A stretch of 52,775 nucleotides of DNA from a virus. The position numbers and the translations under genes were made by a program. Shown in pieces: positions 12,605 through 52,775 of the stretch (positions within the stretch are counted from its first letter, which is position 1; every line of letters begins with the position of its first letter). The notes under the pieces were generated by a model. The model worked only from the letters and a program-made list of their open reading frames with translations. It made no database searches and had not been told where the DNA came from. The stretch spans positions 1 through 52,775 of IMG/VR virus record IMGVR_UViG_3300032174_000008. The stretch is one strand, 5' to 3'.

Positions 12605-12832
12605 ATGACCGCCAAACAACTCGTAAAGGCGCTTCTCCTGGCGCTGGTGAACGGTATCACCACCGATGACCTTGACCGGATGATCGTCGCTATCTACCGC
12701 CTCGAAACAGAACGCGAATCGCTCGCTGAGCAGTTATTCATTAGCCGCGCTCAGGTGTACGTGATGCAGCACAAGGATCGGAAGCCGACGCAGTTCAAAC
12801 ACCGGGCAAATCATCTATACTCAGCCGAATGA
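12605..12832 (+). CDS. Hypothetical protein
   Basis: A 75-residue helical protein with a basic C-terminus. SD AAAAAGGATTAACC before ATG 12605. No recognised family. Confidence 0.62.
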   Translation: MTAKQLVKALLLALVNGITTDDLDRMIVAIYRLETERESLAEQLFISRAQVYVMQHKDRKPTQFKHRANHLYSAE

Positions 12833-12858
12833 TAGAAAGTGTAAAAAGGATCAAAACC

Positions 12859-18058: not shown

Positions 18059-19228
18059 TTATGATCCCCACCATTTAGTCAATTCTTCCAGTGTACCATT
18101 GAATTGGCTGCGGTCATACGAATTTTGTAGTCCGGCGAACCGGCGCGGCTCAGGGCCAAGCGAACCGTCTGTATATTGGTGCAATGTCCAATTAGCCCAG
18201 CCAGCCGGAACGCGCGGATTATCGCCATACGCGGCCAGCCACAATGCGCAATTCACAAGGGCGCTGTTTCCATTCCACCCTAACCCCTGAAGTACGTAGA
18301 AACCCGTGTACAACACCGGCCAGCGCCCAGTACGATCATGCACTTGTTTGACAAACATCTCCGCTTGCACGAGCGTCATACTCGAACCATCGGGGTTGGT
18401 TTCAAGGTCTAACGCAATCAGTGTTTTGTTGTCGGGCTTCGCCGTGTTAAGGAAATGGTTGGCTTGCGCTATGCCGTCTGATCCGTCTGCATAATGATAC
18501 GCGCCCCACAGCAGTCCTTGCGCCGCCGCGTCTGTACGCCTGATAGCGTACCCGCCGTCTACAAAGGTCAAGCCCTGTGTCGCTTTGTGTATGATGGCGG
18601 TCACGCCGGCGGACTTGACGGTTGCCATATCCTCTACCATTGCACGCGCGCCATTCAGGTCAATGATCGTGTTGATTATGGCGGCCGCGACGACTGCTCG
18701 GTTGTACACCAACCCCTGCCACGGAACAGGCGATAATCGCATCGCGTCAAGAAACTGAGCGTTTGATATTTGCCAATTGTGACCATCTTCACGGGTGTTG
18801 GTTCCCTGATTCCACCAGTCGGGATCGTTTACATAAACGAATTGATCGTCTATGCCTACAATCACGACAAAATGCCCAGACGTGTCGCTTATATTTTCCC
18901 GGCCCAATAACGGCTTGTAACTTATCAACGCTAAGCAGGGTCGTCCTGCATCGATTTCGGACTGAATGTAATCTAACCCTAGTTCAACAAGTTTCAACGT
19001 TACGCCATGTCTTGCAGCCAGCGGAATAAGCGCGGTTGTTGTCAATCCGTCGTCGTTCGTTGCCAGTGTTGTTTCTGATGCGAGAGTGTCAATAGGAATA
19101 TTGGGCAGCGGTTGACCGGCTTGTTGTGCTTGGAAGTCGATGTACATGGCGACACACGCCGGACCGCAATCGTTACGGAAACGCCGGGCGTCGGGGTCTT
19201 CCTGAGATCGGTATGGTACGTTCAGCAA
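18059..19228 (-). CDS. Two-domain endolysin: C39-like peptidase and GH25 muramidase
   Basis: A 389-residue protein. N-terminal papain-like peptidase (~1-175): catalytic Cys21 in NDCGPACVAMY, His119 in SGHFVVIVGID and Asp135 in YVNDPDWW, the Cys-His-Asp order of C39-like enzymes. C-terminal glycoside hydrolase 25 (~190-389): IDLNGAR, HKATQGLTFVD, YHYADGSDGIAQANHFL, LDLETNP and a WLAAYGDNP / YTDG / QFNGT end, with the acidic Asp and Glu of LDLE. It would cut both a peptide and the sugar chain of peptidoglycan. TTG start at 19228, with AGAGG about 10 bases before. No signal peptide, so it needs a holin. Confidence 0.88.
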   Translation of the reverse strand: MLNVPYRSQEDPDARRFRNDCGPACVAMYIDFQAQQAGQPLPNIPIDTLASETTLATNDDGLTTTALIPLAARHGVTLKLVELGLDYIQSEIDAGRPCLALISYKPLLGRENISDTSGHFVVIVGIDDQFVYVNDPDWWNQGTNTREDGHNWQISNAQFLDAMRLSPVPWQGLVYNRAVVAAAIINTIIDLNGARAMVEDMATVKSAGVTAIIHKATQGLTFVDGGYAIRRTDAAAQGLLWGAYHYADGSDGIAQANHFLNTAKPDNKTLIALDLETNPDGSSMTLVQAEMFVKQVHDRTGRWPVLYTGFYVLQGLGWNGNSALVNCALWLAAYGDNPRVPAGWANWTLHQYTDGSLGPEPRRFAGLQNSYDRSQFNGTLEELTKWWGS

Positions 19229-30523: not shown

Positions 30524-32035
30524 TTAGTTCGGATTCCTTGCCAACGCCATGTACCCAACACCGCCCGCCGTCTTACGCCCAACGGATAGACAAGTATTGG
30601 CCCCGCATGGTGCTAACACGTCAACACGCGCCGGAGCGCCCGGCAAAATGCCAATTTCGCTTGACGGGCTGTAACGCCACGAATTGCCGCCATCGACCGT
30701 GCGGTATACGCGCGCCGCGCCCGCGACTTCGGTTGCCAGATAGCCGACGTTCTCGTCGAACATCTGCAAATCGTCGATGGTCGTGATCCCGCTGTCCAGT
30801 GTGATCCGCGTCCAGCTTGACCCGCTGTTGGTCGTGTACCACAACTGCCCGTTGCCGGTTGCGACAAACCACGTAATCGCGCTCACACACCACACGGCGC
30901 TGAGGTTCTGACCAACAAGCGGTCCCGTAACCAGCGCCCACGAATTGCCCTCGTTGATGCTCACCAAAACGCCGTTGTTGTTCTGAACCGCCACAATCGT
31001 GCGCCCGTAGTAGTGAATATCGTTGATGTCCTGAGCGGAGAGTGAGCCATCCTGAACCACCGATACTGCCGCGCCAACCGAAGTCAGGCTGTAGATAACG
31101 CCGCCTTGTGCGCCGATAAAGCACGAGTTCGGATTACGCGTAACGATGCAGCGCGGCGATTTGCCAACGGTGAACCCGGTTGTGATCTGTGTCCAGTTGA
31201 CGGTTCCGACTTGAATGTCGGTGAACTTCGCAAAGTGATACGCGCCCTGGAGATTGCTTACCACGATGCAGTACAAGCCCATCGGGGCCATACGCGACGC
31301 GCTCAACCCGCCGAGTGTCGGGATGTCGATCCCGGCCCACGTGTACCCGCCGTCTGACGCGTACAGCAGTTGACTGGACAAGCCCGGCGATCCGGCGTTG
31401 GCTATTTGCAACGCATACGCTTTCTGACAGCCGTCTGAGGCAGGTCCGCAATCGCCGCACTGGATTTGATCGTAGAAAAACGCGTCAACGATTTCAGCCA
31501 GCGTGATAACCGACCCAACTTGCTCGAAAACCATCGGCAACACGACAGTCATCGATTCGGCGCTGAAATCGCCGTTAATATCGACAATCGCGTTCTTTGA
31601 TGCTTCCAACGGATTGAACAGCGAAAAGCCGAACTTCTCCAACCGCGTGCGTCCCAAGATGATCTGGCTGTCCCATTGATCTGGCTGATCGGGCCGTGCG
31701 CAATTCGAGTTGATTACCTTGAGATTGAAATCGCAGCCGCGCGCCCGCAAACTCTCCCAGCGATCAGACAGAAAACGGTTAGCGTGCTGAATGAAACCGG
31801 ACGTAATCAGCGCCGGGGATGCAATGATCGCGTCCACGATGTCCCAGCGGTTGCGTACGTCGCTTGACGGTATCCAAACCGGCGTCTTCTTGCCCAGGTC
31901 TTGATCGGTTTTCTGCAATTCGACCAAGCCTTGATAGTTGTACGATACGCCGGGATTGGCGTAACCTTCCTGAAGCCAAACACGGCTTTTGCCAGCCTGT
32001 AATAGGCTTGGATCGTTTATCTGACCGACTGCCAT
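30524..32035 (-). CDS. Major tail tube protein fused to a beta-propeller
   Basis: A 503-residue protein, far longer than usual tube proteins. Residues ~1-190 look like the tube domain (IINSNCARPDQPDQW...RLEKFGF, then SFDSESMTVVLP-type strands). A Cys-rich link (CGDCGPASDGC) follows. From ~205 to the end there are repeats of about 40-45 residues with S.GG.TW, N.GNSW, S.GSSW and DGGNSW motifs, the pattern of BNR/Ycf48-like propeller blades. The propeller would decorate the tail outside. ATG 32035 has AAGGAG. Tube assignment rests on position (between completion proteins and chaperone), the propeller on visible repeats. Confidence 0.72.
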   Translation of the reverse strand: MAVGQINDPSLLQAGKSRVWLQEGYANPGVSYNYQGLVELQKTDQDLGKKTPVWIPSSDVRNRWDIVDAIIASPALITSGFIQHANRFLSDRWESLRARGCDFNLKVINSNCARPDQPDQWDSQIILGRTRLEKFGFSLFNPLEASKNAIVDINGDFSAESMTVVLPMVFEQVGSVITLAEIVDAFFYDQIQCGDCGPASDGCQKAYALQIANAGSPGLSSQLLYASDGGYTWAGIDIPTLGGLSASRMAPMGLYCIVVSNLQGAYHFAKFTDIQVGTVNWTQITTGFTVGKSPRCIVTRNPNSCFIGAQGGVIYSLTSVGAAVSVVQDGSLSAQDINDIHYYGRTIVAVQNNNGVLVSINEGNSWALVTGPLVGQNLSAVWCVSAITWFVATGNGQLWYTTNSGSSWTRITLDSGITTIDDLQMFDENVGYLATEVAGAARVYRTVDGGNSWRYSPSSEIGILPGAPARVDVLAPCGANTCLSVGRKTAGGVGYMALARNPN

Positions 32036-33895: not shown

Positions 33896-34549
33896 TTATT
33901 CAGCATAACGACACTTCCAACCTTTATGATTAGAGTACTCGCCCCTAGCCACGCGGCACATGCTGCCTGCTGTTAAACCCCGACTTTCGCTAAACCCCTT
34001 TAGATTGACAAATTCAAATTCTTCGCCATCGGGAGAGGTAGCTATCCAATGTAAACTGTGTTTTAGTCTACATTCATCAGACATCTTAACGCCCTTGCGC
34101 GCTTCGCTCATGCGCTTTCGTGCCTCGGGTGAAGGGATTTTACCTTTATGGCTATCGCTCAATTTCTGACGCATCCCGGGCAAGTTAATTCTTTCTTTTG
34201 CAGCGTCACTTATTTTCTTGCGTGTTTCGGGAGAATGCTCACAACCGTTAGCTTTAGGGCAAATATTAAAGCCCCGATTCCCAAAAGGCTTAAGCTTTTT
34301 GAACCAATACTGCTCGCGCTCAAGAACGTTCCAGGGCATAACCAACTCAAGCACTTCAAACCTAAAAGCATCAATGCCGTATTTGTTATAAGCGTTTTGG
34401 AGATGTGCGTTGCCGTGTTTACCAAGCTTAAGCTTGCTAAAATGCGTATGCCGACGTGCTTGCAAATTTACGGCACTACCGATATAGATTTTTCCATTTG
34501 CCGTACACGTTATCATGTAAATCCCGGATGTTGTTGGTATACTTGCCAT
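33896..34549 (-). CDS. GIY-YIG homing endonuclease with NUMOD3 motifs (copy 1)
   Basis: A 217-residue protein. N-terminal GIY-YIG domain: SGIYMITCTANGKIYIGSA (~8-26), then a conserved Arg and LEREQYWFKKLKPFGNRGFN with the catalytic Glu. Three NUMOD3 repeats follow (HSPETRKKISDAAKE; MRQKLSDSHKG; EARKRMSEARKG), then a small helix-turn-helix (GFSESRGLTAGSM) that ends HKGWKCRYAE. Free-standing, in the gap between genes, with its own TATAAT unit. It is a relative of copy 2 at 35241. It cuts DNA to move into homologous phages. Confidence 0.88.
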   Translation of the reverse strand: MASIPTTSGIYMITCTANGKIYIGSAVNLQARRHTHFSKLKLGKHGNAHLQNAYNKYGIDAFRFEVLELVMPWNVLEREQYWFKKLKPFGNRGFNICPKANGCEHSPETRKKISDAAKERINLPGMRQKLSDSHKGKIPSPEARKRMSEARKGVKMSDECRLKHSLHWIATSPDGEEFEFVNLKGFSESRGLTAGSMCRVARGEYSNHKGWKCRYAE

Positions 34550-34632: not shown

Positions 34633-34944
34633 CTAAGGGTTATCGGCCTCAAACGGATTAATCACGCTGTCGGCTAATTCAACCTTTGCCTTGAGCCATT
34701 CAATGTAGTGTGCCATCCACGACGGATGCCGGAACTCTATGATATGCGGACTTATGTTGCCATTGAACTCCTTAGGCTCATGCAACAAAGCCTCAAACAA
34801 TTCCTTCTCCATGTCCGCACGGTACTTGACCCACGCCGCGTCAAGTGACGCCTTTGCGATTTCGACCTTGCGCTTGCCAGCGTCACGCGCCTCTATTTCG
34901 GCGTCGTTTATATCCATAAGCACACCGAATTTCGATTTACCCAT
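34633..34944 (-). CDS. Hypothetical helical protein
   Basis: A 103-residue acidic helical protein (EIEARDAGKRKVEIAKASL). ATG 34944 overlaps the previous gene by 8 bases; the longer frame from 34989 is rejected because it would run within that gene. Function unknown. Confidence 0.6.
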   Translation of the reverse strand: MGKSKFGVLMDINDAEIEARDAGKRKVEIAKASLDAAWVKYRADMEKELFEALLHEPKEFNGNISPHIIEFRHPSWMAHYIEWLKAKVELADSVINPFEADNP

Positions 34945-35230
34945 GATGCACCACACTTTCCACGATAATCGCCCCGGCACTGAACCCAAACCAATCGAGC
35001 GCGGCGATCAGCCAGCTATCGCCCCGGTACAGCGCCACAGCCAGTGCCACAACAGCACTAACCCACAACGACATGCAAAACACGCAGCAAAAAGCACCGG
35101 CCAATCCATGCCCAACGCACTGACTATACTCATCGTGTCTAACCCCCACGGCATGCCGTAACTTGGCAAACACGTCACCCGGCCCGGCTTCGGTTACGAT
35201 GAGTGAGCTAATTCTGAACGTAACTAACAT
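34937..35230 (-). CDS. DUF1360-like membrane protein
   Basis: A 97-residue protein with start MLVTFRISSLIVTEAGPGDVF, followed by a Cys pair segment (CCVFCMSLWVSAVVALAVAL) and further hydrophobic helices (~2 in total). This is the pattern of DUF1360, small membrane proteins common in phages and Bacillus: FR..RLI..EDGP, then C.FC.S.W. SD GAGG about 10 bases before ATG 35230; the longer frame from 35281 starts inside the neighbouring homing endonuclease gene and is rejected. Function unknown. Confidence 0.75.
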   Translation of the reverse strand: MLVTFRISSLIVTEAGPGDVFAKLRHAVGVRHDEYSQCVGHGLAGAFCCVFCMSLWVSAVVALAVALYRGDSWLIAALDWFGFSAGAIIVESVVHHG

Positions 35231-35240
35231 ACATAAAACC

Positions 35241-35945
35241 TCAAGCACGTCTACACTTCCAGCCTTTATGGTGTTTGGCATAACCGTATGCCACTTGTCC
35301 CATAGCGCTACGATTAAGATTATGCTCGAGACAAAAACGCTGTAAATTTACAATTTTCGCCTCATGCCCATCAGGATCGATAACAACCCACTCGAGCGAT
35401 TTTGAGGCACTCATCTTTTCGCGTATCTCGAGTGAAGGATTTTTGCTTGCGGCACTAAGCTTCGCACGTGTTTCTTCGGTAGGATGCTTTCCCTTGTTCG
35501 CTGGTGATTGTCCTTTGTGAGATACGCTCAGTCTTTCTCGAGTTTCGGCTGAATGATGCTTTCCTTTATTCCATGCCGGTTTTCCAATATTCGAAGCGCT
35601 AATCCTTTGGCGTACTTCCAAAGGAGCGTTAAGCATTGGAGATTCGGCATTACGTGAAACATTAAAACCACGTGGCTCGAATGGTTTTAATTTGTCGAGC
35701 CAATATTGCTCTCGAGCCAATAATGCAAACGGAAAAACGTATTCTAGAACCTTAAACGTGAAACTTTCTTCGCCATACTTGTTCCAAGCGCTTTGCAAAT
35801 GGCGATTACCGTGTTTATTGTGACGTAAGTTAGAGCAATGCTGCTGCATACGCGTGCGCAGATTTGCCGTGCTACCTATATAAATTTTCCCATTTGCAAT
35901 GCACGTGATCATGTAAATTCCCGAAGTTGACGATATACTTTCCAT
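35241..35945 (-). CDS. GIY-YIG homing endonuclease with NUMOD3 motifs (copy 2)
   Basis: A 234-residue protein and paralogue of 33896: SGIYMITCIANGKIYIGSTA, LAREQYWLDKLKPFEPRGFN, four NUMOD3 repeats (EVRQRISASNIGK; ETRERLSVSHKGQ; ETRAKLSAASKN; EIREKMSASKS), and a small helix-turn-helix near the end (FCLEHNLNRSAM, then HHKGWKCRRA). Own TATAAT and leader hairpin. It lies between the three-domain glycosyltransferase and the DUF1360-like gene. Confidence 0.88.
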   Translation of the reverse strand: MESISSTSGIYMITCIANGKIYIGSTANLRTRMQQHCSNLRHNKHGNRHLQSAWNKYGEESFTFKVLEYVFPFALLAREQYWLDKLKPFEPRGFNVSRNAESPMLNAPLEVRQRISASNIGKPAWNKGKHHSAETRERLSVSHKGQSPANKGKHPTEETRAKLSAASKNPSLEIREKMSASKSLEWVVIDPDGHEAKIVNLQRFCLEHNLNRSAMGQVAYGYAKHHKGWKCRRA

Positions 35946-36029: not shown

Positions 36030-36341
36030 TTAAAGCGCAGCTACAGGCTGACGCTGAATTGTTGGTGGGGGCGGCGGGATAGGAGTAGATTGCTTTTCCT
36101 CGGCTATTTCTGCTATGGGAGTAAAGCGCTGATCGTTTTGAAGATCTGCCAATTTTACGTAGAATGTCGCACCGCCCATTCGGTATCCATAGTTTGTTTT
36201 TGTTATTGGCCCGTACACTTGCGTTTGTCCGGGCGGCCCGTTGTACACGATCCTCACCAGTTGATCGGGCGTTGGCGGTTGGCCGTTGACGCCCTGGATA
36301 ACCTGCTTGCTGGTTGGCGCATTGTTTTTGCAGCCGCACAT
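36030..36341 (-). CDS. Internal in-frame start: C-terminal 103-residue product
   Basis: Within the glycosyltransferase gene, ATG 36341 is preceded by a perfect AGGAGG with four bases between (36346-36351), in the same frame. It would give MCGCKNNAPTSKQ... as a free protein of 103 residues, Pro-rich at its end. It is also the best-scoring SD of the area. Either a nested product or the trace of a former separate gene fused to the enzyme. Confidence 0.55.
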   Translation of the reverse strand: MCGCKNNAPTSKQVIQGVNGQPPTPDQLVRIVYNGPPGQTQVYGPITKTNYGYRMGGATFYVKLADLQNDQRFTPIAEIAEEKQSTPIPPPPPTIQRQPVAAL

Positions 36342-38702
36342 TTTGCCTCCTGAGATGTACTCGCCATACTTCTGATTGAACGCTGCGATAATTTCAGCCT
36401 TGATCGTTTCGCCCCGTTCACGCCGCTGGCCGGTCAAATATCGGTATATGAATAATGGCTCAGCCACGCGCGCGCCGCAAATATCGGCCTTCGCAAGATC
36501 CATGAAATATTGGACGTCCTCCCAGGATACCATCGATTCATCGAAGCCGCCGATTTGTTCGTGCCACGCCTTCTTAAGTAGGATGTTCACGGCATGACCT
36601 ACCGGCTTTTGGAACACATCCCCCGTCACAAACTCCGGCGTTTCGTGCCCTTCGAGCATGCCCTCTTTGTTCACCGATAGCCAGTCGGTGTACACGTACC
36701 GCCCGGTTCGCTGGTACATGCGCAACGTCTTTTCGAGGAACGTCGGCATCAAGATGTCATCGGCATCGAGAAACGTCACGAACGGCGCTGTAGCGTGTTT
36801 GACGCCCAGATTACGGGCTGCCCCTGCACCAACGTGCCCCGCCGTATCGATTACGCGCGCCCACGGGAACGGCGCAAGTCCGGGTAGCGGTTCGCCGGTA
36901 TCGTTGACAATGATCGCTTCCCAGTATCGCTCAGTCTGGCGTTCTATGCTGTCAAGGGCTTGCGCTAGATAAGGAATGTGGTATCCGGCCACTGGCACAA
37001 TAACCGATACCTTAGGCCGATCGTAGTTGCGTACCGGGCGCGCAATGCCAGCGGCGGCCAGCGGGTATTGCTTGTCATTTATAAATGGCTTGTCTCCAAC
37101 CCAGTCCGGTTCGGTTTGTTTTCCAGTTCGCACACCTTCAGATAAACTCCCGCTGTGAAGGCGATAATGAAACCATCCGGCATCAGTGACCTGTTTGGCA
37201 CGGAAGCCAAGCGAGACAATGCGCAAGAATAACTCTGCATCCTCAGCCGGTTGATACTGCGAGCGATAGCCTCCCGCTCGACGCCACGCATCACGACGAA
37301 ACATGCAGCACGTTGGCACTTGGTTATGGCGGTCAACTTGTTTCTCCCACGAAAATCCTTTAGGCCACTCGCTGACAGCGCCTAACTTGCCGTCAGCATC
37401 AATCGTCTGCAATCCGGTGAATGCAATGCCCAGCCCGCGATCAGCGTCTAGAGCATCGGCTAACGTTTGCAGAAAGCGCGGATCACCTAACTTGTCATCG
37501 GCATCCAGACAACAGATATAGTCGCCCTTTGCCTCTTTGATGCCGCGATTGCGCGCGTTGGCGACGCCGGAGTTTGGCTGATCGATAACACGCGCGTCAT
37601 ACAGAACCTGGTTTGTATCGAAGCCGGAAACGCTAAGTGCTTCGATTATCGCGTCATGCGACCCGTCGGTTGATCCGTCGTTGACTATAATTAATTCGAC
37701 ATTCCATCCTGTAGTCGGTGCTTTTAACGACTGTTTAGAAACGCTGGCTATCGCCTCACCGACATATTGCGCGTAATTGTGGCACGGAATAATGACGCTA
37801 ATTTTTGGATGTGAATGCGTGTCGAATAGGCTATCGTAAACTTCAGCAATCGAAGCCGCCACGCCCTGCCACGTGAACAGCCGTGCGACTTCGCGGGCGT
37901 TCGCGCCCAACGTTTCGCGGTGCTTGAGACAGTACGCCAACCCTTCAATTAGCCCGTCAATGTCGCCTGGTTCGCACAAAAAACCGTTAATGCCGTGTTT
38001 GACAAGATTCGGCATGTTGCCGTGTGCGTAGCCAAGTATTGGCACTCCTGCAGCCATGAATTCTAGCGCCCCAATGCAAAACGTTTCCTTCGTGGTACAC
38101 AATCCGATAGACGCGCCTCGAATTAGACCTTTCATCACGTCAAAAGTTTGACGCCCGATGACGCGCAAGTTCGGAGTCGCCGCCTGCCCGAACGTGCTCA
38201 GGAAGTGCATCTGTGGCACTTTCTTTGCCAGTTCGGTGATCGGCGTCGGGTCGCACACCGGATCGCTTCGGGTCTTATTCCACAACACATACCCTTGATT
38301 GTTGCCCGGTTCCCACTCGTCAAAGTCGATGGCCCACGGGATCACCGTCGGATTGATGTGGCAATCGCGCCTCAGCAGATCGGCAACCCATTCGCTGGGA
38401 GCGGTTACGACACGCGCCGACATAAAAGAATTCACAACTCCCTGATTGGCACTGACCATCCACGGTTCAATCAGGTGCGGGTAAGCGCTTGGGTATAAAC
38501 CATGGAGATGTGCCACGTCGGGCTGTCTGTCGTTGTGTTGCCCTGCATGTCCAGCAATTAAATCGGCTTCATTTATATTTTCGGTGAGTTGATACCCCCA
38601 CTCGGGTAAAGACTTCTCGAGATGGATTGTTATCGCGTTTATGCTGTTGGTCAGATCGTTTCTCGCATGAGATGGCAATGGCATCATGTAGCATTTACGC
38701 AT
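36030..38702 (-). CDS. Three-domain glycosyltransferase (GT4-like, GT2, GT2) with a C-terminal extension
   Basis: An 890-residue protein. First domain (~1-310): GT-B fold, VVTAPSEWVADLLRR and EFMAAGVPILGYAHGNMPNL, typical of GT4-like retaining enzymes. Second (~320-560): GT2 A-fold, ISVIIPCHNYAQYV, VNDGSTDGS, CLDADDK. Third (~580-800): again GT2, VSVIVPVAGYHIPYL, VNDTGEP, FLDADDIL, GGFDESM. The last ~100 residues are separate: the MCGCKNN... block described at 36030-36341. ATG 38702 is used; an in-frame GTG at 38753 also exists. It lies between the homing endonuclease and virion genes, consistent with modification of virion proteins or of host glycan. No signal peptide. Confidence 0.8.
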   Translation of the reverse strand: MRKCYMMPLPSHARNDLTNSINAITIHLEKSLPEWGYQLTENINEADLIAGHAGQHNDRQPDVAHLHGLYPSAYPHLIEPWMVSANQGVVNSFMSARVVTAPSEWVADLLRRDCHINPTVIPWAIDFDEWEPGNNQGYVLWNKTRSDPVCDPTPITELAKKVPQMHFLSTFGQAATPNLRVIGRQTFDVMKGLIRGASIGLCTTKETFCIGALEFMAAGVPILGYAHGNMPNLVKHGINGFLCEPGDIDGLIEGLAYCLKHRETLGANAREVARLFTWQGVAASIAEVYDSLFDTHSHPKISVIIPCHNYAQYVGEAIASVSKQSLKAPTTGWNVELIIVNDGSTDGSHDAIIEALSVSGFDTNQVLYDARVIDQPNSGVANARNRGIKEAKGDYICCLDADDKLGDPRFLQTLADALDADRGLGIAFTGLQTIDADGKLGAVSEWPKGFSWEKQVDRHNQVPTCCMFRRDAWRRAGGYRSQYQPAEDAELFLRIVSLGFRAKQVTDAGWFHYRLHSGSLSEGVRTGKQTEPDWVGDKPFINDKQYPLAAAGIARPVRNYDRPKVSVIVPVAGYHIPYLAQALDSIERQTERYWEAIIVNDTGEPLPGLAPFPWARVIDTAGHVGAGAARNLGVKHATAPFVTFLDADDILMPTFLEKTLRMYQRTGRYVYTDWLSVNKEGMLEGHETPEFVTGDVFQKPVGHAVNILLKKAWHEQIGGFDESMVSWEDVQYFMDLAKADICGARVAEPLFIYRYLTGQRRERGETIKAEIIAAFNQKYGEYISGGKMCGCKNNAPTSKQVIQGVNGQPPTPDQLVRIVYNGPPGQTQVYGPITKTNYGYRMGGATFYVKLADLQNDQRFTPIAEIAEEKQSTPIPPPPPTIQRQPVAAL

Positions 38703-38791
38703 GGCGGCACATCCAGTGACGATGATGGTTACGCCTACCGTTGGCAACTGCACACATTTTCGTTGTACTTAGTCCGTTCTGACGGCAAAAT

Positions 38792-39100
38792 TCAGTTAAG
38801 TTGTGCACTTCGTTCAATGTCTTCTTGCTCCTGAACAAATCTCATACGGGCATACAGGTTCGCGCTGCCATAATTTCGATACTCAGGTTTGCGCTCCCAA
38901 CCTAAAAAACTGACGGGTTGCCATTTTCCGGGAACATCCCGATTTAGCATTAGTTCGACTTCGCGAACGGCGTCTTCTTTTGTTGCATAGTCGAATTTCT
39001 GGCAATATTCAAAATCAACAATCCCCCACGGATTGTAGTAGATACGATAGACAGTCGGGACCGTAAGGTCTACAACCAAGTGGGGATTTTCGGCTTTCAT
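38792..39100 (-). CDS. Hypothetical protein
   Basis: A 102-residue protein with Tyr-rich, beta-like N-terminal half (YRIYYNPWGIVDFEY) and charged helical C-terminal half. No family recognised. Coupled to the methyltransferase before it (ATGA). Confidence 0.6.
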   Translation of the reverse strand: MKAENPHLVVDLTVPTVYRIYYNPWGIVDFEYCQKFDYATKEDAVREVELMLNRDVPGKWQPVSFLGWERKPEYRNYGSANLYARMRFVQEQEDIERSAQLN

Positions 39101-39687
39101 GCCGTTCGCTCCAAAACCAGCATCGTATGAACCACCTTGACCGACTTCCAGCTATCGGGATTCTCCGCCTTCCAATCTGCCACGGCCTTGCTCACTTCAA
39201 CGTGTAGCGGGTGCGCAACGTGCCCTGGATGTGCGTCGCTAGCGGTCACGGCGTTATCGTGTACCAGCACAAAGCCGCCAACCTTAACCAACGGCGTGTA
39301 CAGCGATAAGTCGGCAAGTGCATCAGTATACGAATGCCCGCCGTCAATGAACAAAACGTCAATAGCTTTGTTGCGCAGTTTCTTCTTCAGTTGAGCGAGC
39401 GTCGCCTTGTCGCTCGAATTGCCGACAATTAGCGGCGGCGGTACTAACCCGGCCTCGGTCAGGTTCGCCGAGTACGCGTCAAGTGGGTTGATCTCAATGC
39501 CGTATACGGTTGCGGTGGGCGCGTATTTCACAAACGCCGCCATTGAGCGTCCGAATTCCACGCCGACATTAACGATTACGCCGCCTTCGGGTACGGTTTT
39601 CGCGTACTCGATCAGCGTATCTTCCTCATCCGTTTCAAGCCAGCCGGGTACATCCGTGTACGGGCTGTACGGTGCATTACCGATCAT
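39097..39687 (-). CDS. Class I SAM-dependent methyltransferase
   Basis: A 196-residue protein: GGVIVNVGVEFGRSMAAF (motif I), VYGIEINPL (acidic end of strand 2), DVLFIDGGHSYTDALADL, a Methyltransf_24-like signature with acidic DGGH, and VGGFVLVHDNA. ATG 39687 is used (AAAGGGGG ahead); an in-frame GTG 15 bases earlier is likely not the start. Its neighbours suggest sugar or glycan O-methylation. DNA as a substrate is unlikely from the motifs. Confidence 0.78.
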   Translation of the reverse strand: MIGNAPYSPYTDVPGWLETDEEDTLIEYAKTVPEGGVIVNVGVEFGRSMAAFVKYAPTATVYGIEINPLDAYSANLTEAGLVPPPLIVGNSSDKATLAQLKKKLRNKAIDVLFIDGGHSYTDALADLSLYTPLVKVGGFVLVHDNAVTASDAHPGHVAHPLHVEVSKAVADWKAENPDSWKSVKVVHTMLVLERTA

Positions 39688-39698
39688 CGTACCCCCTT

Positions 39699-39998
39699 TC
39701 ACTGCAATCGATTGATAAGCAAGTCGAAGTGGCCTTCTATGGCGGTGCTAGCCCCTTGCGGTGCGCCAAACAACAACGCCACGTACTGCCAAGCGCCGTA
39801 CACCGCCGCCCCTTGCCCGGCAGCCCAGCCGTATCGCGCTTCCAAGTTTGTGAAAGTAGCGCCGTCGGTTTGGTGTTGCAGTAAACCGTATACTGAAAGC
39901 ACTTGCGAAACGGCTTGACGCATCGCATCGCGCGCGTTACCGAGTGCTTGCGCGTCCGAGTTCGCGCTCCGGTTAGTGATTATCTCGTCTGATGCCAT
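39699..39998 (-). CDS. Small structural-type protein
   Basis: A 99-residue Ala/Gln-rich helical protein with a few aromatic residues (FTNLEARYGWAAGQGAAVY). No family recognised. ATG 39998 follows AGGAG. Confidence 0.6.
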   Translation of the reverse strand: MASDEIITNRSANSDAQALGNARDAMRQAVSQVLSVYGLLQHQTDGATFTNLEARYGWAAGQGAAVYGAWQYVALLFGAPQGASTAIEGHFDLLINRLQ

Positions 39999-40037
39999 CG
40001 TTCATACTCCTATTCGTTAGTTGTCCGTTTCATTCTA

Positions 40038-40769
40038 TCATAGAGGCGTACTCAACGTCGTGATCGCCGCGCCCGACTTCACGTCGCTGAATAGGCTGAA
40101 GCCCGCGAGCCAGCCTTTCCAGTAGGTGCCGCCATTAAGGCGAGCCAGTGTGCAAAGTGCGTTAGTCAGCGAACCTGTCCACGCACCGGCTAGAGTGTGC
40201 GAACTAGGCGCACCGCCGTCTATGTACAATTTAAGCGCATTGCCTGCCTGATCCCATGTCTCAATTATGTTATGCCAACCAGCAGTCACCGCAAGCGATA
40301 CGGTTATCGATGAAATTGACCCGCCTTTTTTGTCATAGATAATGACTGTACTTGCTGTTTCCTTACCGCCCACAACGAAATTATTGGTGTCAACTCCTAT
40401 CGAATAGAAATACTCTGTTGTAGGCCAACTTCCATTGGTGTTTATCCAGATTGAGATCGTACCCTTGGTTGGATCAAACACGCTATTCAACGCCACCGCT
40501 GGCAACTGCCCAAATCCGGTCGTGCCATCAAACAACGGCGCATTGCCCATGCTTGCGCCCGGCCCGGCAAGGTTCGCCAGTGCCACGCCGCCGTTGTATG
40601 TGCCGTTGAGTCCACTGTTGTTCGGGCAAACTATCGTTGTACCGGCGTTCTCGTTCAGCGGGTAGTAGGCAATCAGGTTGCCAAGTCCCTGAACCGCCGA
40701 CTGATACGCCGGAACGCCAGTGCCTCCGCGCCTGAGAAGATACTGGCCTAGAAGATGGTGGAAACTCAA
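40038..40769 (-). CDS. LamG-like lectin-type virion protein
   Basis: A 243-residue protein. Residues ~30-230 follow the LamG/concanavalin-A-like jelly roll: LIAYYPLNENAGTTIVCPNNS, LFDGTTGFGQLP, GTISIWINTNG, GWHNIIETWDQAGNALKLYIDG. Such domains bind carbohydrates and often sit as virion decoration. The short N-terminus may anchor it. Directly next to the 124-residue decoration-type protein. Confidence 0.75.
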   Translation of the reverse strand: MSFHHLLGQYLLRRGGTGVPAYQSAVQGLGNLIAYYPLNENAGTTIVCPNNSGLNGTYNGGVALANLAGPGASMGNAPLFDGTTGFGQLPAVALNSVFDPTKGTISIWINTNGSWPTTEYFYSIGVDTNNFVVGGKETASTVIIYDKKGGSISSITVSLAVTAGWHNIIETWDQAGNALKLYIDGGAPSSHTLAGAWTGSLTNALCTLARLNGGTYWKGWLAGFSLFSDVKSGAAITTLSTPL

Positions 40770-40770
40770 C

Positions 40771-41145
40771 TCAGCTTGTCCAGTAGTATTGCAGCGAGTA
40801 GCCGACTTGCACGCCGGTTGACAGGTTGATGATCAGCGCATTGCCATTCTGAGCCTGATCAAAACCTAGACTAATCCCGCGCCCCGGCACGAGCGGCAAG
40901 CATACGCCGTCGCCTTGATTCTGTGCCAACGTTCGCCAAAATGGGGAACCGCCCGCCTTGACGATAATCGTAACCGGCGTCGCGCTTTCGTTTTGCACCT
41001 GGAGCGCGGTGATTACCAATCGTTGCGGTACGTTCGGCTGGGCAATAACCACGTTATCGCCGTTGCCGTTAATGGTTCCGGTTTTGAACAGAAATCCGCC
41101 GGGCACTTGCGGATCTTGCGTGACAACCACATATTCCATTGGCAT
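40771..41145 (-). CDS. Decoration-type beta protein
   Basis: A 124-residue, nearly all-beta protein (VITALQVQNESATPVTIIVKA, RGISLGFDQAQNGNALIINLS). It resembles small phage decoration or fibre-attachment proteins in texture only; no domain is recognised. It precedes the LamG-like gene. Confidence 0.6.
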   Translation of the reverse strand: MPMEYVVVTQDPQVPGGFLFKTGTINGNGDNVVIAQPNVPQRLVITALQVQNESATPVTIIVKAGGSPFWRTLAQNQGDGVCLPLVPGRGISLGFDQAQNGNALIINLSTGVQVGYSLQYYWTS

Positions 41146-41146
41146 G

Positions 41147-41707
41147 TTAGATTGTTCTCCGTTGCTCTGCCATTGAATATAATGCGAACTTGCTCAAATT
41201 CGCCTCTTTGAACTTCTTCGGTCTACGTGCTTTGATGAACACACCCGGTTCAGACGGATCATCCATCAGCGCGAGTATCTCAAAGTCGGCAAAGATCGCC
41301 CGCATGTCATCACAATTGTAGCGCCAGGCGTCTATCGGGTATTCGTGATATTGAAATCCTTCCGACCGCGTGGTAATGAATAACACGCCGCCCGGTTTCA
41401 ACACGCGTTTGTAATTGCTGATCACCGCGCGCCAGTCGCTAACATGCTCGATTACCTCAGTCGATACCAGCACGTCAAACGAGCGCGCGCCGAACGTTTT
41501 TACAAGATCCTCAGCCGCGCAAATGCGATCAACACAGATACCCGGTACGATGTCCGTGCCAACGTATCGATTACAACCCAGCCGCTCGAAATGCCAGCGT
41601 GCCGAACCGTTCACGTCCTGCGAACCGCTTTCGATAATGTCCTTGCCGAATGCCTCGTCTTTAGCAAGGTTGTCGCGCACGAATTCAAGGCAACGTATAT
41701 TACACAC
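41147..41707 (-). CDS. Class I SAM-dependent methyltransferase (type 11-like)
   Basis: A 186-residue protein: YVGTDIVPGICVD with the acidic residue after strand 2, FDVLVSTEVIEHVSDW (the motif IV position of type-11 enzymes), then ISNYKRVLKPGGVLFITTRSEGFQYHEYP. The usual glycine-rich motif I is weak. Probably acts on a small molecule or sugar with the neighbouring glycosyltransferase. Overlaps that gene by 8 bases. Confidence 0.75.
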   Translation of the reverse strand: MCNIRCLEFVRDNLAKDEAFGKDIIESGSQDVNGSARWHFERLGCNRYVGTDIVPGICVDRICAAEDLVKTFGARSFDVLVSTEVIEHVSDWRAVISNYKRVLKPGGVLFITTRSEGFQYHEYPIDAWRYNCDDMRAIFADFEILALMDDPSEPGVFIKARRPKKFKEANLSKFALYSMAEQRRTI

Positions 41708-42470
41708 TGATCGTCGTCTTTTCCGTGTCGAGTGTCGAGTGTTGGTAACTTTTGCCGATGTGATCGAAGTACGTGTTTATCCACTCTGGCAACACAGTAA
41801 TCACTGGCGACTGAGGCTCACTCCGCATTTTATCAAGTACCATGTGACTGTACGCCTCCTCAGTCGCGCCCAACTTCAGCCCTTCGGGATAATACCCGTA
41901 GAATTGCGGGTGAAACGTTGCGCGCTTGAGGTGCGGCGTGTTGCTATAAATCCAAAGTGTCGGGGAACCGCTATCCAAAAGTAAGTAACACAGCTTGCCG
42001 AACAACCCCATGCCCTCACGGTAATCGGGTATCCAGTGCGATATGTCGGCCTCCATTTGATGGAGAATACACTGAGTACCACTTGTGCCGCCGAACCGCA
42101 TCATGCCGATTTCCGGCTTGACCTCCATACACGCAATCGCCGCCTGAAGGTCAAGTTCCTTCTGTAGAATTCGGTCATCTTCGACCTGAATTACGAAAGG
42201 TGCACTACTATAACGAAGTGCACGATTTACATTAAACCCCCACCCGCCGTTAACGCCTCGATGTGGCACAAACTCATAGTTTATGAAATTAAATATGTAT
42301 GACTTTGCAAGTTTAGATTGATAATCACCTGGGGAAGCATCATCCGCAATCAAGTATCGAAGTTTATCCTTCGGATAATCAATTTTTTTATGGAGGGCCT
42401 CCATTGTGAGGATTATCTCATTCAAACGATCGTACGTGACGACTATAATATCAACGCGGGGCCACTCCAT
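41700..42470 (-). CDS. GT2-like glycosyltransferase
   Basis: A 256-residue protein with GT-A start VDIIVVTYDRLNEIILTMEAL, IADDASPGDY and, later, VIQVEDDRILQKELDLQAA with the DxD-like acidic pair VEDD. No membrane helices. It is between the type-11 methyltransferase and an HNH endonuclease, which overlaps its start by 20 bases. Confidence 0.75.
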   Translation of the reverse strand: MEWPRVDIIVVTYDRLNEIILTMEALHKKIDYPKDKLRYLIADDASPGDYQSKLAKSYIFNFINYEFVPHRGVNGGWGFNVNRALRYSSAPFVIQVEDDRILQKELDLQAAIACMEVKPEIGMMRFGGTSGTQCILHQMEADISHWIPDYREGMGLFGKLCYLLLDSGSPTLWIYSNTPHLKRATFHPQFYGYYPEGLKLGATEEAYSHMVLDKMRSEPQSPVITVLPEWINTYFDHIGKSYQHSTLDTEKTTISV

Positions 42471-43209
42471 TTATTTCAACGCTCCGAACGTGGCTAAAGA
42501 ACTCCAGAATGCTGGACTGTTTTTTGAGAGCCACGCGTTTTCCATATTCTTCAACAAGCCACCCCATAGCATTCTTTTTGCCTTTACTATTGTTGCATCC
42601 ATCGATTCCGTGACAAAGGGGAACAATATTGCCGGGGACTGTATTGCCCCCGTCGCAAACAGGTATCCAGTGGTCAAGCGCCAATGTGTGCCAAAAGCCA
42701 ATAGTACGCCCGCAAATAGCGCAGCGGTTACGCCAATAATCAAGAGCAAATAACCAGTCGTCTTTGGTGAAATCAACAACGGTTTCCAGTTTCTTTGCGC
42801 GCCGTCGCTCAACGGCGATCTTTTGGTTAAGTTGTATTGTTCCTTTATCTCTCCGCCGAATATAAGACTCGCGCGAGCGCTCACGAAAAACATCCCGGTT
42901 ATCTTGATAACGCTTCTTGTGATAGAGCGCACTTTCGGCCTTATGCCTTCGGTAGCGCATTTTATTGGCAGCGCCATATTGCTCTCGGTGTTGTTCGTAA
43001 TGATGATGCTTGTACTCAGGGTTTTTATCAAACCACGCCTTCTTAGATGCCTTAACACGGTCCTTGTGAGTTTCGGTGTACCGATGTTGGTTGACTTTTC
43101 GACAAGCCTTGCACTGTTTATCAAGCCCGGTTGACTTGTTCCGGTAGAACCATTCGGCTGTTGCTGGAAACTCTTGCTTGCACTTCGAACAACGTCTATA
43201 CTCTTCCAT
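42451..43209 (-). CDS. HNH homing endonuclease with zinc-finger N-terminus
   Basis: A 252-residue protein. N-terminus: CSKC and CKAC pairs (~8-36), a zinc-binding motif. The middle is a long basic helical region rich in Tyr-Arg-His (~45-125). C-terminus: HNH, CAICGR, ALDHWIPVCDGG with the first His, then VPGNIVPLCHGIDGCNNSKG with the second pair. Intruder in the operon: own TATAAT (43276-43281) and leader hairpin, and its end overlaps the next gene by 20 bases. Confidence 0.85.
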   Translation of the reverse strand: MEEYRRCSKCKQEFPATAEWFYRNKSTGLDKQCKACRKVNQHRYTETHKDRVKASKKAWFDKNPEYKHHHYEQHREQYGAANKMRYRRHKAESALYHKKRYQDNRDVFRERSRESYIRRRDKGTIQLNQKIAVERRRAKKLETVVDFTKDDWLFALDYWRNRCAICGRTIGFWHTLALDHWIPVCDGGNTVPGNIVPLCHGIDGCNNSKGKKNAMGWLVEEYGKRVALKKQSSILEFFSHVRSVEINGVAPR

Positions 43210-43275: not shown

Positions 43276-43281
43276 ATTATA
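43276..43281 (-). promoter_or_regulatory. -10 box TATAAT for HNH endonuclease
   Basis: Perfect TATAAT on the minus strand, overlapping the end of the exonuclease gene. No -35 box. Confidence 0.5.
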
Positions 43282-43885
43282 CCTCAGCACTCGCCATTTT
43301 CTTGATCAGCGCCAGGGTCGCAATGCAATCGCTGAGGGCCGTGTGTCCCCCGCCCGGCAACCGTTGCCATTTAAAATTGCCGTGATACTCGTTGTACTCA
43401 CCAACGAACTCGGCATACGGATTCATGATGTCGATAGTCCGCACTCCGCCTTGAATTAATGAGACATCGGCCCACGTTCCGTCGTTTTTCATGTGGTGCG
43501 ACTTGATGCCAACATGCTTAGCCGACTGCTCAACAATCCGTGTGTCGAAATCGGCATTGTAAATAGCCACATGCAAACCGTCTGTTAAAAGCTGCACAAG
43601 GCTATCCCACACCTGGTCAAACGTCGGCGCGTCCTTGACCATCTCGTTGCTTATGCCGTGAACCGCAAACGCGCGCCCGCGTTCGTCAATCGGCTTGCTC
43701 GGCTTAACCAGCGTGTCAAGTAGCACGTTGCCGTCACTGTCGATCACGGCGATCTGCACGACTTCGGCGCTGTCGTCGAGACCGGTTGTCTCGGTATCCA
43801 AAATAAGGAACTTCTTTGCCGCAAGCTGTTTCATGGCGGCTATCGCGTCGGCGCGAGCACTCAGATAATCAACTTCACTTTGCAT
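43277..43885 (-). CDS. DnaQ-like 3'-5' exonuclease
   Basis: A 202-residue DEDD-family exonuclease: FLILDTETTGLDD (Exo I, DxE), IYNADFDTRIV (Exo II, D) and HTALSDCIATLALI (Exo III, His and Asp, so DEDDh type). Acts on DNA or RNA ends, e.g. proofreading-like or in nucleic-acid turnover. ATG 43885 with AAAAAGGAT is used; the frame upstream to 44203 is rejected as unusual and without SD. TACACT (43960-43965) and a leader hairpin precede it. Confidence 0.85.
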   Translation of the reverse strand: MQSEVDYLSARADAIAAMKQLAAKKFLILDTETTGLDDSAEVVQIAVIDSDGNVLLDTLVKPSKPIDERGRAFAVHGISNEMVKDAPTFDQVWDSLVQLLTDGLHVAIYNADFDTRIVEQSAKHVGIKSHHMKNDGTWADVSLIQGGVRTIDIMNPYAEFVGEYNEYHGNFKWQRLPGGGHTALSDCIATLALIKKMASAEV

Positions 43886-43905
43886 CACAAATATCCTTTT
43901 TAGGT

Positions 43906-43933
43906 GGGACTGTGACCCACGGGACACAGCCCC
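43906..43933 (-). promoter_or_regulatory. Leader hairpin of the DnaQ-like gene
   Basis: GGG-CTGTG with CACAG-CCC pairing, about 20 bases ahead of the ATG; -10-like TACACT at 43960-43965. Confidence 0.45.
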
Positions 43934-43973
43934 CAACCGTCTCAGCAAGAACAGTTCACAGTGTACCATAAAA

Positions 43974-44240
43974 TCAAGGTATAGGTAGCGGTCTGTTGTA
44001 ATCCGCCCAATCCTTGAGTACTGCCTTTTGGTCAACCCCAAAGTAAGCGCTGATATGCTCCAACAGAAACAACCACCAGTCCGATTTGTCGGTAATTGTC
44101 GATTGAAATTGGCGGGGTACAGGTTCATTGCGAAGGCGGTCGAACGTAAACATGGCGAACATGACATTTTCATCGGCATTGTCGGACGGATTACCTTCAA
44201 CACGGAAAGCGTAATTGTCGATAACCATTATTCCGCTCAT
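43974..44240 (-). CDS. Hypothetical protein
   Basis: An 88-residue protein with beta start (VIDNYAFRVEGN) and a Trp-rich helical C-terminus (DWWLFLLEHISAYFG). No known family. It is one base after the Zn-ribbon stop, in the same operon. Confidence 0.62.
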   Translation of the reverse strand: MSGIMVIDNYAFRVEGNPSDNADENVMFAMFTFDRLRNEPVPRQFQSTITDKSDWWLFLLEHISAYFGVDQKAVLKDWADYNRPLPIP

Positions 44241-44241
44241 G

Positions 44242-44880
44242 TTAGTTTCCTTTCAGGCTGTTGAAGTGAGCTACCATGTACTCGTTCATGATACCAGCAG
44301 TAATTTCAGCGTTTTTCCTCATGTCGATTTCAACCTGATGCCAACCATAAGCATCGTCGCTAGACCAATCCTCATCCTTAGCGCCAAGTTCGCGTAGTGG
44401 ATTGTCGGGATCAGGCATTAGCGGTATCTGCTCACCACGCACCAATGCGTCACCATCAATCAGCCGCATTATCTGCCTATAGCAATCCTTGCAAATAACT
44501 TCTTTGCGCATATCAGGCTGAATATACCGCATCCAATCAGCACCCCGAACGGCAAAGAACTTGCGTTCCTCGTTGCCACACCGCACGCAACGCACTGGAT
44601 AGCGAATATAAGGTATTCGTCCCTTATTGGTCAACATCAACTCCCATCGAGCCGCGTCAATTACTGACAGCCCTTTCGTATATACATCGAGCGGCAAGTA
44701 GGATGTTTCAAGTGTGTATTTGGCTCTATCCATTATGCCAAGTTGCACGTATTTGCAGAAACATGAAAGAAGTTGCCCGCCGCAAAACGGGCATATCTCA
44801 TGATCGCAATTCGGAAAAAATTTATGCAACTGACCTTCTCGGCAACCGCAGTCACCGCATGTGTGGATTTGTGGAGACAT
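44242..44880 (-). CDS. Zinc-ribbon protein
   Basis: A 212-residue protein with several Cys pairs: CGDCGC, CPFCGG with CFC, CVRCG and CKDC (roughly residues 8-13, 30-43, 98-101 and 126-129), so two or more zinc ribbons. The rest is helical and acidic at the C-terminus. DNA or RNA contact is plausible. It is the first gene after the capsid terminator, with -10-like TACAAT (44969-44974) and an extended leader hairpin (44914-44964). Confidence 0.68.
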   Translation of the reverse strand: MSPQIHTCGDCGCREGQLHKFFPNCDHEICPFCGGQLLSCFCKYVQLGIMDRAKYTLETSYLPLDVYTKGLSVIDAARWELMLTNKGRIPYIRYPVRCVRCGNEERKFFAVRGADWMRYIQPDMRKEVICKDCYRQIMRLIDGDALVRGEQIPLMPDPDNPLRELGAKDEDWSSDDAYGWHQVEIDMRKNAEITAGIMNEYMVAHFNSLKGN

Positions 44881-45031: not shown

Positions 45032-46663
45032 TTACGCAATGACCACGGGTGGGCTGCTTTGCCAGTCCACATAATAGGAAGTCTGCGCAGGCGCCGAGGT
45101 CCTCCCGCCGTCTTTGAAGTATTGTGAATTCGGATCGTATGACGCCACGTGCTGGAGCGGAGCGTATCCGACATTCTGAAGGCGACCTGCCAACTGTGGC
45201 ATATGCGTACGCACCCTAAAGCGGGTAACCGTGTCCCACTGAACGCAAGGTCCATTGTAGTATACGTACCAGCGGAAAATCCCGCCGTCGGTCGTGAACG
45301 TGTGCAGCAACCCGCCCTGCTGTACGACGTCATCCATGATCCCGTTCTCCCAGTTGAATGGCTGGATATACGATATTGGCATTTCGCCAAGCACACGGTA
45401 CGGCATGAAGTAGATACCACTGGCGTACTGTCCGGCGCTCAATTTGTTATTGTTGGTGACGTTGGTTTCGGTGATCGTGTCGTCCTGGATGACCTCGTAG
45501 GGCACGCCGCGAATCGGCAGGTACGACCCTTGCCGCATAGCGTTGCGCAAGTCAACGGTTTCCTTGCCGTCGATGGTCACGCGCCCGTTGTTGAAAGCGC
45601 CGATTGCGGTTAGGGCTTCGGTGTACTCGTACACCGGCCACACCTTGACGATTTCGTCAAACAAGTTCGGGTGAACGACGAACTTCCAGGTGCAGGGCAG
45701 CAGCCCCTGACGCTGGGCGTTCCACCAGCACGAGCGAACCATCATATCCATACGGCTGTAGAACGACTGCCCGTTTGAGCCGCTCGATACGATGGATGAT
45801 CCGAAGTCGTCAAGGTACGAGTCCAACGCGGTACACACGTTCTGGCTGAACACGTCCTTGTGATTGCCCTGGTTGATCTGAAGATCGAACCCTTCGATCT
45901 GCTGGTAGTTTTGCGACGTGCTGCTGTTTGCCGGGTTGCCCGCGTACGTCTGAGTGGCAAGCAACCGCTTGAGGCCAACGGCCATCACAAACGCGCGCTT
46001 TGAAAACTCATTCAAGAGGATTTGATTGCCGCCGCCCTGCCCCAACATTTGCGGGATCAGGTTGGTTTGTGGCGGGGCCATATTCATCAACTGGAGGTAC
46101 GTCGGGTCGGCGCGGTCACGCAATGTAGCGATGTTTTCGAGGTTCATTGAGAACGAACCGCGATACTTGCCAAACGGCATTGTCACCGTGCAAGCCTTGA
46201 GCAGTCCGGCTTCCGGCCCAACGGCGCATTGGGTAGTCGGTTGATTGGCTACCGAGTCCAGGTTGCCGGACGTTACACCGGTGATATAGGTGTGCAGCGG
46301 AGCCGAAAAGCCGCCGAACCCCTGATCGCCGCCGTCAAACTCCTGACCGAGTCCCTCGAAGATGATCGGCAAGTCGTCAATCAGCCCTTGCATCGGCAAC
46401 ATCATCGCGCTGAAGATTTGCGGCATTTGACCGGGCACGGAAAAGAGACCGCCATTACCATGGACATATGGTCCTACTGGATTTGCGCCAACACCCGTTG
46501 GATTGTTTTTGAAGCCGGTCATCTGGTCATCAGTTCCGGCCAGTTGTTTCTGCTGGAAGCTGAGCGGGATGTTTTTCGCGTTCTTGTTGGTAACGTGATA
46601 CGGATTATCGAACGGCGAAAACGGATTGAAACGGTGCGGTTGCTGTTGAACTTGTAGTGTCAT
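45032..46663 (-). CDS. Major capsid protein
   Basis: A 543-residue protein, HK97-type by position (portal, protease/scaffold, capsid). It is longer than the HK97 protein and has a long N-terminal segment (~1-100) that may be partly cleaved. Contains beta-rich internal stretches and the pattern FDEIVKVWPVYEYTEALTAI near the middle. No sequence motif is diagnostic, so the call is by order, size and abundance-type composition (Gln/Asn/Phe-rich). A terminator follows. Confidence 0.8.
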   Translation of the reverse strand: MTLQVQQQPHRFNPFSPFDNPYHVTNKNAKNIPLSFQQKQLAGTDDQMTGFKNNPTGVGANPVGPYVHGNGGLFSVPGQMPQIFSAMMLPMQGLIDDLPIIFEGLGQEFDGGDQGFGGFSAPLHTYITGVTSGNLDSVANQPTTQCAVGPEAGLLKACTVTMPFGKYRGSFSMNLENIATLRDRADPTYLQLMNMAPPQTNLIPQMLGQGGGNQILLNEFSKRAFVMAVGLKRLLATQTYAGNPANSSTSQNYQQIEGFDLQINQGNHKDVFSQNVCTALDSYLDDFGSSIVSSGSNGQSFYSRMDMMVRSCWWNAQRQGLLPCTWKFVVHPNLFDEIVKVWPVYEYTEALTAIGAFNNGRVTIDGKETVDLRNAMRQGSYLPIRGVPYEVIQDDTITETNVTNNNKLSAGQYASGIYFMPYRVLGEMPISYIQPFNWENGIMDDVVQQGGLLHTFTTDGGIFRWYVYYNGPCVQWDTVTRFRVRTHMPQLAGRLQNVGYAPLQHVASYDPNSQYFKDGGRTSAPAQTSYYVDWQSSPPVVIA

Positions 46664-52092: not shown

Positions 52093-52775
52093 TCACTCCG
52101 GCAAATAGAATCTTGCTCTGTCGTCGCACATCGACAATGCTACCGCCAAATCGATTTTTAAGCTAAGCGACCGCTTGACAATGCGCAATGTGTTCTTGTC
52201 CTCAGCCGTGCTGTTGGCGTTCTGAAGATGTTCCCGCATATCGGGAAAGTCGCCGTTGTGGACAATCCGCCGTGCCATAATGTTATCGTACAGCGCCTTG
52301 TCAGCGATCAAGCGCGGCTTTTCCTGCTGGAATTCCTCAAACGCCGCCAACCCTTCAATCGACAAATCAGTAACAAAGCTATGTAGCTGATACGGGTCAT
52401 AGCAAACGATCACCACGTTGTACTCAGTACACAGCCAGCGCAACACGCCCTCAGGGTAATCGCGGTCAGCAGGATCGGCGGGGTTGCGATATTGGATCTT
52501 GCCATTGACCGGCAACCAGCGCCGGGCATAGCGCAGTGCCGTTTTATCGTCATGCCGTGATAGACAACATATGGCGAAACAATCATTACTTACCGCCGCG
52601 TCCAGAGCAACCACAACCTCCCTGTAACGGTTGAGCGCTGGCAACTCGGCAACCTTGCACGCGTCCCACCATTCGATCTGGATAAACGACTGCGTACTGC
52701 TTACCCATTGGTTATGGTGTATGCGCTCGAATTCGTTGGGTAACAGCTGCTGGGCTTCCGATTCATAGTAACTCG
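52093..52775 (-). CDS. terL: Terminase large subunit, C-terminal (nuclease) part
   Basis: The C-terminal part of the gene at 1-914, cut by the window end; the 127 bases from 52649 repeat the start of the window. Nuclease motifs of the RNase H-like fold are visible: VVVALDAAVS (first Asp), VIVCYDPYQLH (second Asp) and SLKIDLAVALSMCDD near the end (final Asp), which cuts concatemeric DNA during packaging. The ATPase half lies at the other end. Stop at 52093, two bases before the small zinc protein gene. Confidence 0.92.
   Translation of the reverse strand, partial: SYYESEAQQLLPNEFERIHHNQWVSSTQSFIQIEWWDACKVAELPALNRYREVVVALDAAVSNDCFAICCLSRHDDKTALRYARRWLPVNGKIQYRNPADPADRDYPEGVLRWLCTEYNVVIVCYDPYQLHSFVTDLSIEGLAAFEEFQQEKPRLIADKALYDNIMARRIVHNGDFPDMREHLQNANSTAEDKNTLRIVKRSLSLKIDLAVALSMCDDRARFYLPE
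52649..52775. repeat. Terminal direct repeat, right copy
   Basis: Identical to bases 1-127. See that entry. Confidence 0.95.

Follow-up and report, generated by a model that had tools for sequence, protein, structure and literature searches.

Positions 36030 to 42470 of the window, by which we mean the whole 52,775-base stretch of DNA analysed, contain eight open reading frames, all on the minus strand, at the place where the first-pass annotation had put a glycosylation gene set. In order of transcription, they encode a GT2-type glycosyltransferase (GT) of 256 amino acids (41700-42470; PF00535, 1.6e-07; no membrane helix), a SAM methyltransferase (MT) of the Methyltransf_11/23 type with 186 amino acids (41147-41707; PF13489, 1.4e-11), a predicted jelly-roll protein of 124 amino acids (40771-41145; all-beta model, with homologues encoded after a GT gene), a LamG/concanavalin-A-like protein of 243 amino acids (40038-40769; PF13385, 9.2e-12), a 99-amino acid protein with no family match (39699-39998), an O-methyltransferase-type enzyme of 201 amino acids (39097-39702; Methyltransf_24, CmcI/rhamnosyl O-methyltransferase; PF13578, 2.1e-14, and PF04989, 6.6e-09), a 102-amino acid protein with no family match and a low G+C gene (38792-39100), and a GT4-GT2-GT2 fusion of 907 amino acids, or 890 from Met18, recognized by its Pfam domains and catalytic motifs (36030-38753). 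The intergenic gaps within the set are, in the same order, -8, +1, +1, 39, -4, -4, and 89 bases, and this close packing makes the set look like one operon, in which the enzyme genes are interleaved with the presumed structural genes for the jelly-roll and LamG-like proteins. The G+C content is 0.51-0.58 in most of the cassette genes, the exceptions being the GT2 gene (0.476) and the gene for the 102-amino acid protein (0.453). No nucleotide-sugar synthesis gene was recognized within the set.

Comparison of the ends of the record showed an identical direct repeat of 127 bases (1-127 and 52649-52775), and the large terminase gene spans the genome ends. The genome was therefore considered complete, and matches to tape measure and distal tail proteins at 23.9-29.5 kb indicated that the virus is a tailed phage. 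The upstream border of the set is the gene for the presumed major capsid protein (MCP; 45032-46663, minus strand), which was assigned by its position after a protease/scaffold-like gene. The assignment of the set to a location between head and tail genes rests on the terminase, the tail matches, and the position of the MCP gene; the MCP itself had no matches in the family searches, and its structure prediction reached a pLDDT of 28.8. It is 77% identical to its counterpart in IMG/VR contig 3300024245_000013, and neither the MCP nor the portal-like protein had a match among 50,697 phage records. The relatives of the genome are few and were drawn only from IMG/VR; the terminase of one of them is only about 24% identical to those of known phages, mostly phages of Lachnospiraceae and kin. 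Neither the jelly-roll protein nor the MCP had a relative in two scans of genome contigs that could point to a host. Other regions of the genome encode a 763-amino acid protein in which a helicase is fused to an N6/N4 DNA methylase domain (12829-15120), a C39-like peptidase joined to a GH25 lysozyme domain, probably the endolysin (18059-19228), and, in the structural region, a 503-amino acid protein with weak sortilin/YCF48-like beta-propeller matches (30524-32035).

The Pfam searches identified GT2 domains in two stretches of the fusion (3.1e-46) and a GT1-group (GT4-type) domain (1.7e-12). Each of the three domains retains catalytic motifs: EX7E at 223 in the GT4 domain, and DxD together with ED in the two GT2 domains, at 417/504 and 663/745. 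The length of 890 residues previously given for this protein fits a start at Met18, and 907 residues is the longest frame. The nearest solved structures include those of chondroitin synthase (2z86/2z87, about 5e-15) and GalT1 (5hea), the PHROG matches are annotated as GtrB-like O-antigen conversion or glycosyltransferase, and the best phage match belongs to Pseudomonas phage Y4, an unverified and unannotated record. A C-terminal extension of approximately 100 amino acids (residues about 800-907; 36030-36350) had no family match above chance; a CGC motif is located within it. The best solved relative of the enzyme encoded at 39097-39702 is 6g7d, a protein with a possible sugar-specific role. 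No membrane helix was found in any GT or other protein of the cassette.

The first-pass annotation had also suggested that the set may be variable, and a comparison of the same slot in relatives supports this view. In contig 3300024245_000013, the MCP gene is followed by genes for a 134-amino acid protein, a GT2 enzyme (53% identical to that of the present set), and a jelly-roll protein (37%), with the GT2 and jelly-roll genes overlapping by one base. The methyltransferase gene found between GT2 and jelly-roll genes in the present set is absent from this close relative, and the exonuclease, cysteine-rich protein, and HNH genes that separate the MCP and GT2 genes are also missing there. In the present genome, the DnaQ-like exonuclease and the cysteine-rich protein are encoded at 43277-44880. 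Thus, the GT2 and jelly-roll genes keep their place, and the cassette content varies. A more remote contig, 3300037504_000674 (92.7 kb), has an MCP of another family, and shortly after the MCP gene, a GT gene overlaps the gene for a jelly-roll homologue (41%), which is followed by the gene for a 338-amino acid protein; further downstream are GT2, GT2, and GT4-type genes and then the tail tube gene. This arrangement resembles the present set in the succession of MCP, GT, and jelly-roll homologue and in the later GT2, GT2, and GT4-type genes, but the GT genes are separate, the MCP family is different, and no methyltransferase was recognized. The GTs adjoining the jelly-roll gene in the two genomes are not detectably related; therefore, the recurring element is a GT gene next to a jelly-roll gene and not one GT family.

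Phage homologues of the methyltransferase encoded at 41147-41707 are few, and they lie beside GT genes in four out of four contexts examined. Pontimonas phage phiPsal1 (MCP-GT4-MT-GT2-neck) is similar to the present genome in having the set between the MCP and neck genes, in the GT4 and GT2 types, and in the methyltransferase (37% to that at 41147-41707). It differs in that its genes are separate, the methyltransferase gene is on the other strand, and no jelly-roll or LamG gene is part of the set, the functions of which are predicted. In podovirus ctKR88, which has a 761-amino acid GT2...GT4 protein, GT and homologous methyltransferase genes follow the MCP gene, and in Synechococcus phage S-CBS4 they are arranged as portal-GT-GT-MT, with an HNH gene adjoining the set. 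Both resemble the present genome in carrying these genes among the head genes, but they represent other phage lineages with other gene orders, and their functions are also predictions. In phage Zuko, the order is GT-MT-GT, away from the head genes.

A studied analogue is found in the Corndogvirus group (Corndog, Firecracker, and Catdawg), represented in the gene-order comparison by the records of Firecracker and Catdawg. These phages encode an O-methyltransferase (TylF/Methyltransf_24) and three GTs between the portal and protease genes. As in the present genome, a PF13578 O-methyltransferase and several GTs are encoded on one strand among the head genes, the family PF13578 being common to the Firecracker O-methyltransferase and the enzyme encoded at 39097-39702. 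In contrast, the Corndog-group set is located between portal and protease and has three separate GTs, whereas the present set follows the MCP gene, includes a GT4-GT2-GT2 fusion and a methyltransferase of a second family, and has jelly-roll and LamG genes interspersed among the enzyme genes. BLAST detected no similarity between the enzymes of the set and the Corndog-group O-methyltransferase or the rest of that set, so that only fold families are common to both. Nonetheless, features of a Corndog/Che8-type cassette that can be read from the sequence were found here, among them soluble GTs with catalytic motifs accompanied by an O-methyltransferase (PF13578 in both, with no BLAST similarity). 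Modification of the capsid by these enzymes was proposed in a 2015 paper on the Corndog group (PMC4351075), and according to later reports, glycans are present on virion proteins of Corndog, Che8, and Myrna (PMC12363180, PMC11256854, PMC12619734; citing Freeman 2023).

Taken as predicted from sequence, the set is probably a cassette for virion glycosylation that would be expressed together with the late structural genes and whose glycan product would be methylated. The Corndog-group set and the reported glycosylation are the main reason for this interpretation. It is also the likeliest one because of the location of the set in a structural operon, the lack of membrane helices in the GTs, the conserved neighbours in relatives, and the absence from our searches of an integrase or serine recombinase and of a thymidylate-synthase-type enzyme. 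Hence, virion glycosylation, as proposed in the first-pass annotation, stands as the best reading, and the endonuclease-borne mobility proposed along with it is not supported. In the proposed pathway, the separate GT2 enzyme and the three domains of the fusion (GT4, GT2, and GT2) would be cytoplasmic and use nucleotide sugars of the host to assemble a short glycan chain on at least one virion protein. Candidate acceptors are the jelly-roll protein, whose gene is close by, the capsid protein, and the tail tube. The two methyltransferases would then methylate the resulting glycan. What the sequence shows directly is the presence of the genes with their domains and motifs, an operon-like packing, and a neighbourhood that recurs; we infer the late expression, the activity of the enzymes, the donor, the acceptor, the presence in the virion, and any benefit, which may consist of shielding, stability, or adsorption.

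GTs adjoining structural genes could also act on host glycans. During infection, the enzymes would in this case alter glycans of the host surface such as O-antigen, capsule, or teichoic acid, with the structural neighbourhood reflecting late expression only, and the effect would be to exclude other phages or to keep the progeny from binding debris. Cell-surface polysaccharide clusters typically combine sugar methyltransferases with GT2 and GT4 enzymes, and the relatives of the fusion described above, polysaccharide synthases among the nearest solved structures and GtrB-like O-antigen conversion proteins or glycosyltransferases among the PHROG matches, point in the same direction. However, a serotype-converting gtr cluster has a membrane-anchored GtrB-type GT and a flippase, usually in a temperate phage, and the present set does not fit this description: none of its GTs has a membrane helix, and the genome search found no tyrosine integrase (PF00589) or serine recombinase (PF07508). 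The interleaving with the jelly-roll and LamG genes and the recurrence of the GT/jelly-roll gene pair in unrelated phages also argue against an action on host glycans, which we consider unlikely.

The jelly-roll protein of 124 amino acids was described in the first-pass annotation as a beta decoration protein. The beta character agrees with the all-beta model, which is of medium confidence (pLDDT 61.7, pTM 0.56), and the decoration role is a guess; the protein has no family match. Alignment of the model with the HFTV1 turret gave Z 7.3 (rmsd 3.0, 97 residues) and that with the KHP40 cement protein Z 7.6 (rmsd 3.2, 98 residues). Values of Z under 8 are common for such a beta arrangement, and nucleoplasmins scored higher (Z 10.3, rmsd 2.3, 93 residues). 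Fucose-binding lectins found with the profile of the jelly-roll protein (best E 2e-06) were set aside; these lectins are repeat proteins, the match covers only about 37 positions, and none of their stretches passes the threshold by itself. The turret of HFTV1 comprises a base and a head protein for which a carbohydrate-binding domain has been proposed (PMC12494034), and by analogy, the set might mainly serve adsorption, with the jelly-roll protein as the base of a capsid turret, the LamG-like protein as its glycan-binding head, and the enzymes tuning the appendage or being incidental. The alignments with the HFTV1 and KHP40 proteins and the order of the genes, in which a jelly-roll gene precedes that of another putative surface protein here and in contig 3300037504_000674, favor such a role. 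Yet the medium confidence of the model, the higher scores of the nucleoplasmins, and the frequency of such Z values weaken the structural comparison, and the four enzyme genes are left unexplained; adsorption as the main function of the set is accordingly improbable. A turret-like role of the two proteins is possible and compatible with glycosylation. Both are probably particle surface proteins, and the modelled jelly-roll protein is a candidate surface protein and glycan acceptor. A bolder and rather doubtful version is that the jelly-roll family is the dedicated acceptor of the neighbouring GT, the pair recurring in phages whose capsid proteins differ, and that together with the downstream lectin-like protein it would form a glycosylated capsid appendage.

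The homing endonuclease genes said to flank the set were confirmed by Pfam, all on the minus strand. An HNH homing-type endonuclease gene (42451-43209; PF01844, 2.2e-04) overlaps the start of the GT2 gene by 20 bases, and a GIY-YIG homing-type endonuclease gene (PF01541 and NUMOD3) occupies 35241-35945. The gene for a second GIY-YIG homing-type endonuclease (33896-34549) was recognized by its start, where its DNA matches the first at 72%, and by the relatives that it shares with it; a small hydrophobic protein of PHROG 781 is encoded between the two (34937-35281). The flanking positions, and the HNH gene beside the S-CBS4 set, would agree with mobilization of the whole set between phages as one unit by the border endonucleases, a mode of spread that is independent of function. 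This is very unlikely. In the relatives, the endonuclease homologues were not found at the borders of the set but in other gaps: the GIY-YIG homologues are located between the terminase and portal genes in contig 3300024245_000013 and before the portal gene in relative L004, and the HNH homologue in contig 3300024245_000013 precedes the protease gene and is encoded on the opposite strand, whereas the GT2 and jelly-roll genes stay where they are. The G+C content of the GIY-YIG genes (0.44-0.45; 0.476 in the HNH gene) also departs from that of most of the cassette genes. The endonuclease genes seem to have invaded gaps of the late operon independently, and the earlier idea that they may make the set mobile is not supported.

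Glycosylation of modified bases in the phage DNA, a known activity of phage GTs according to work cited in PMC12619734 and one with which the DNA methylases encoded by the genome would agree, is the least probable function, given a set placed in the structural operon alongside sugar-type methyltransferases and a genome in which a search covering the thymidylate-synthase-type hydroxymethylase route (PF00303) found no such enzyme.

Virion glycosylation being the preferred interpretation, the cassette is most likely a further member of a kind already known from mycobacteriophages. Its less usual features include the three-domain fusion with the unmatched C-terminal extension and the recurring GT/jelly-roll gene pair, the latter being the feature that most merits further work and offering a concrete candidate acceptor. 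In the literature surveyed, covalent glycosylation of the virions of tailed phages has been reported for only a few mycobacteriophages. The presence of GT and methyltransferase sets among the head genes of several unrelated phages suggests that virion glycosylation may be much wider, which would have consequences for the encounters of phage particles with antibodies, mucus, and host surfaces.
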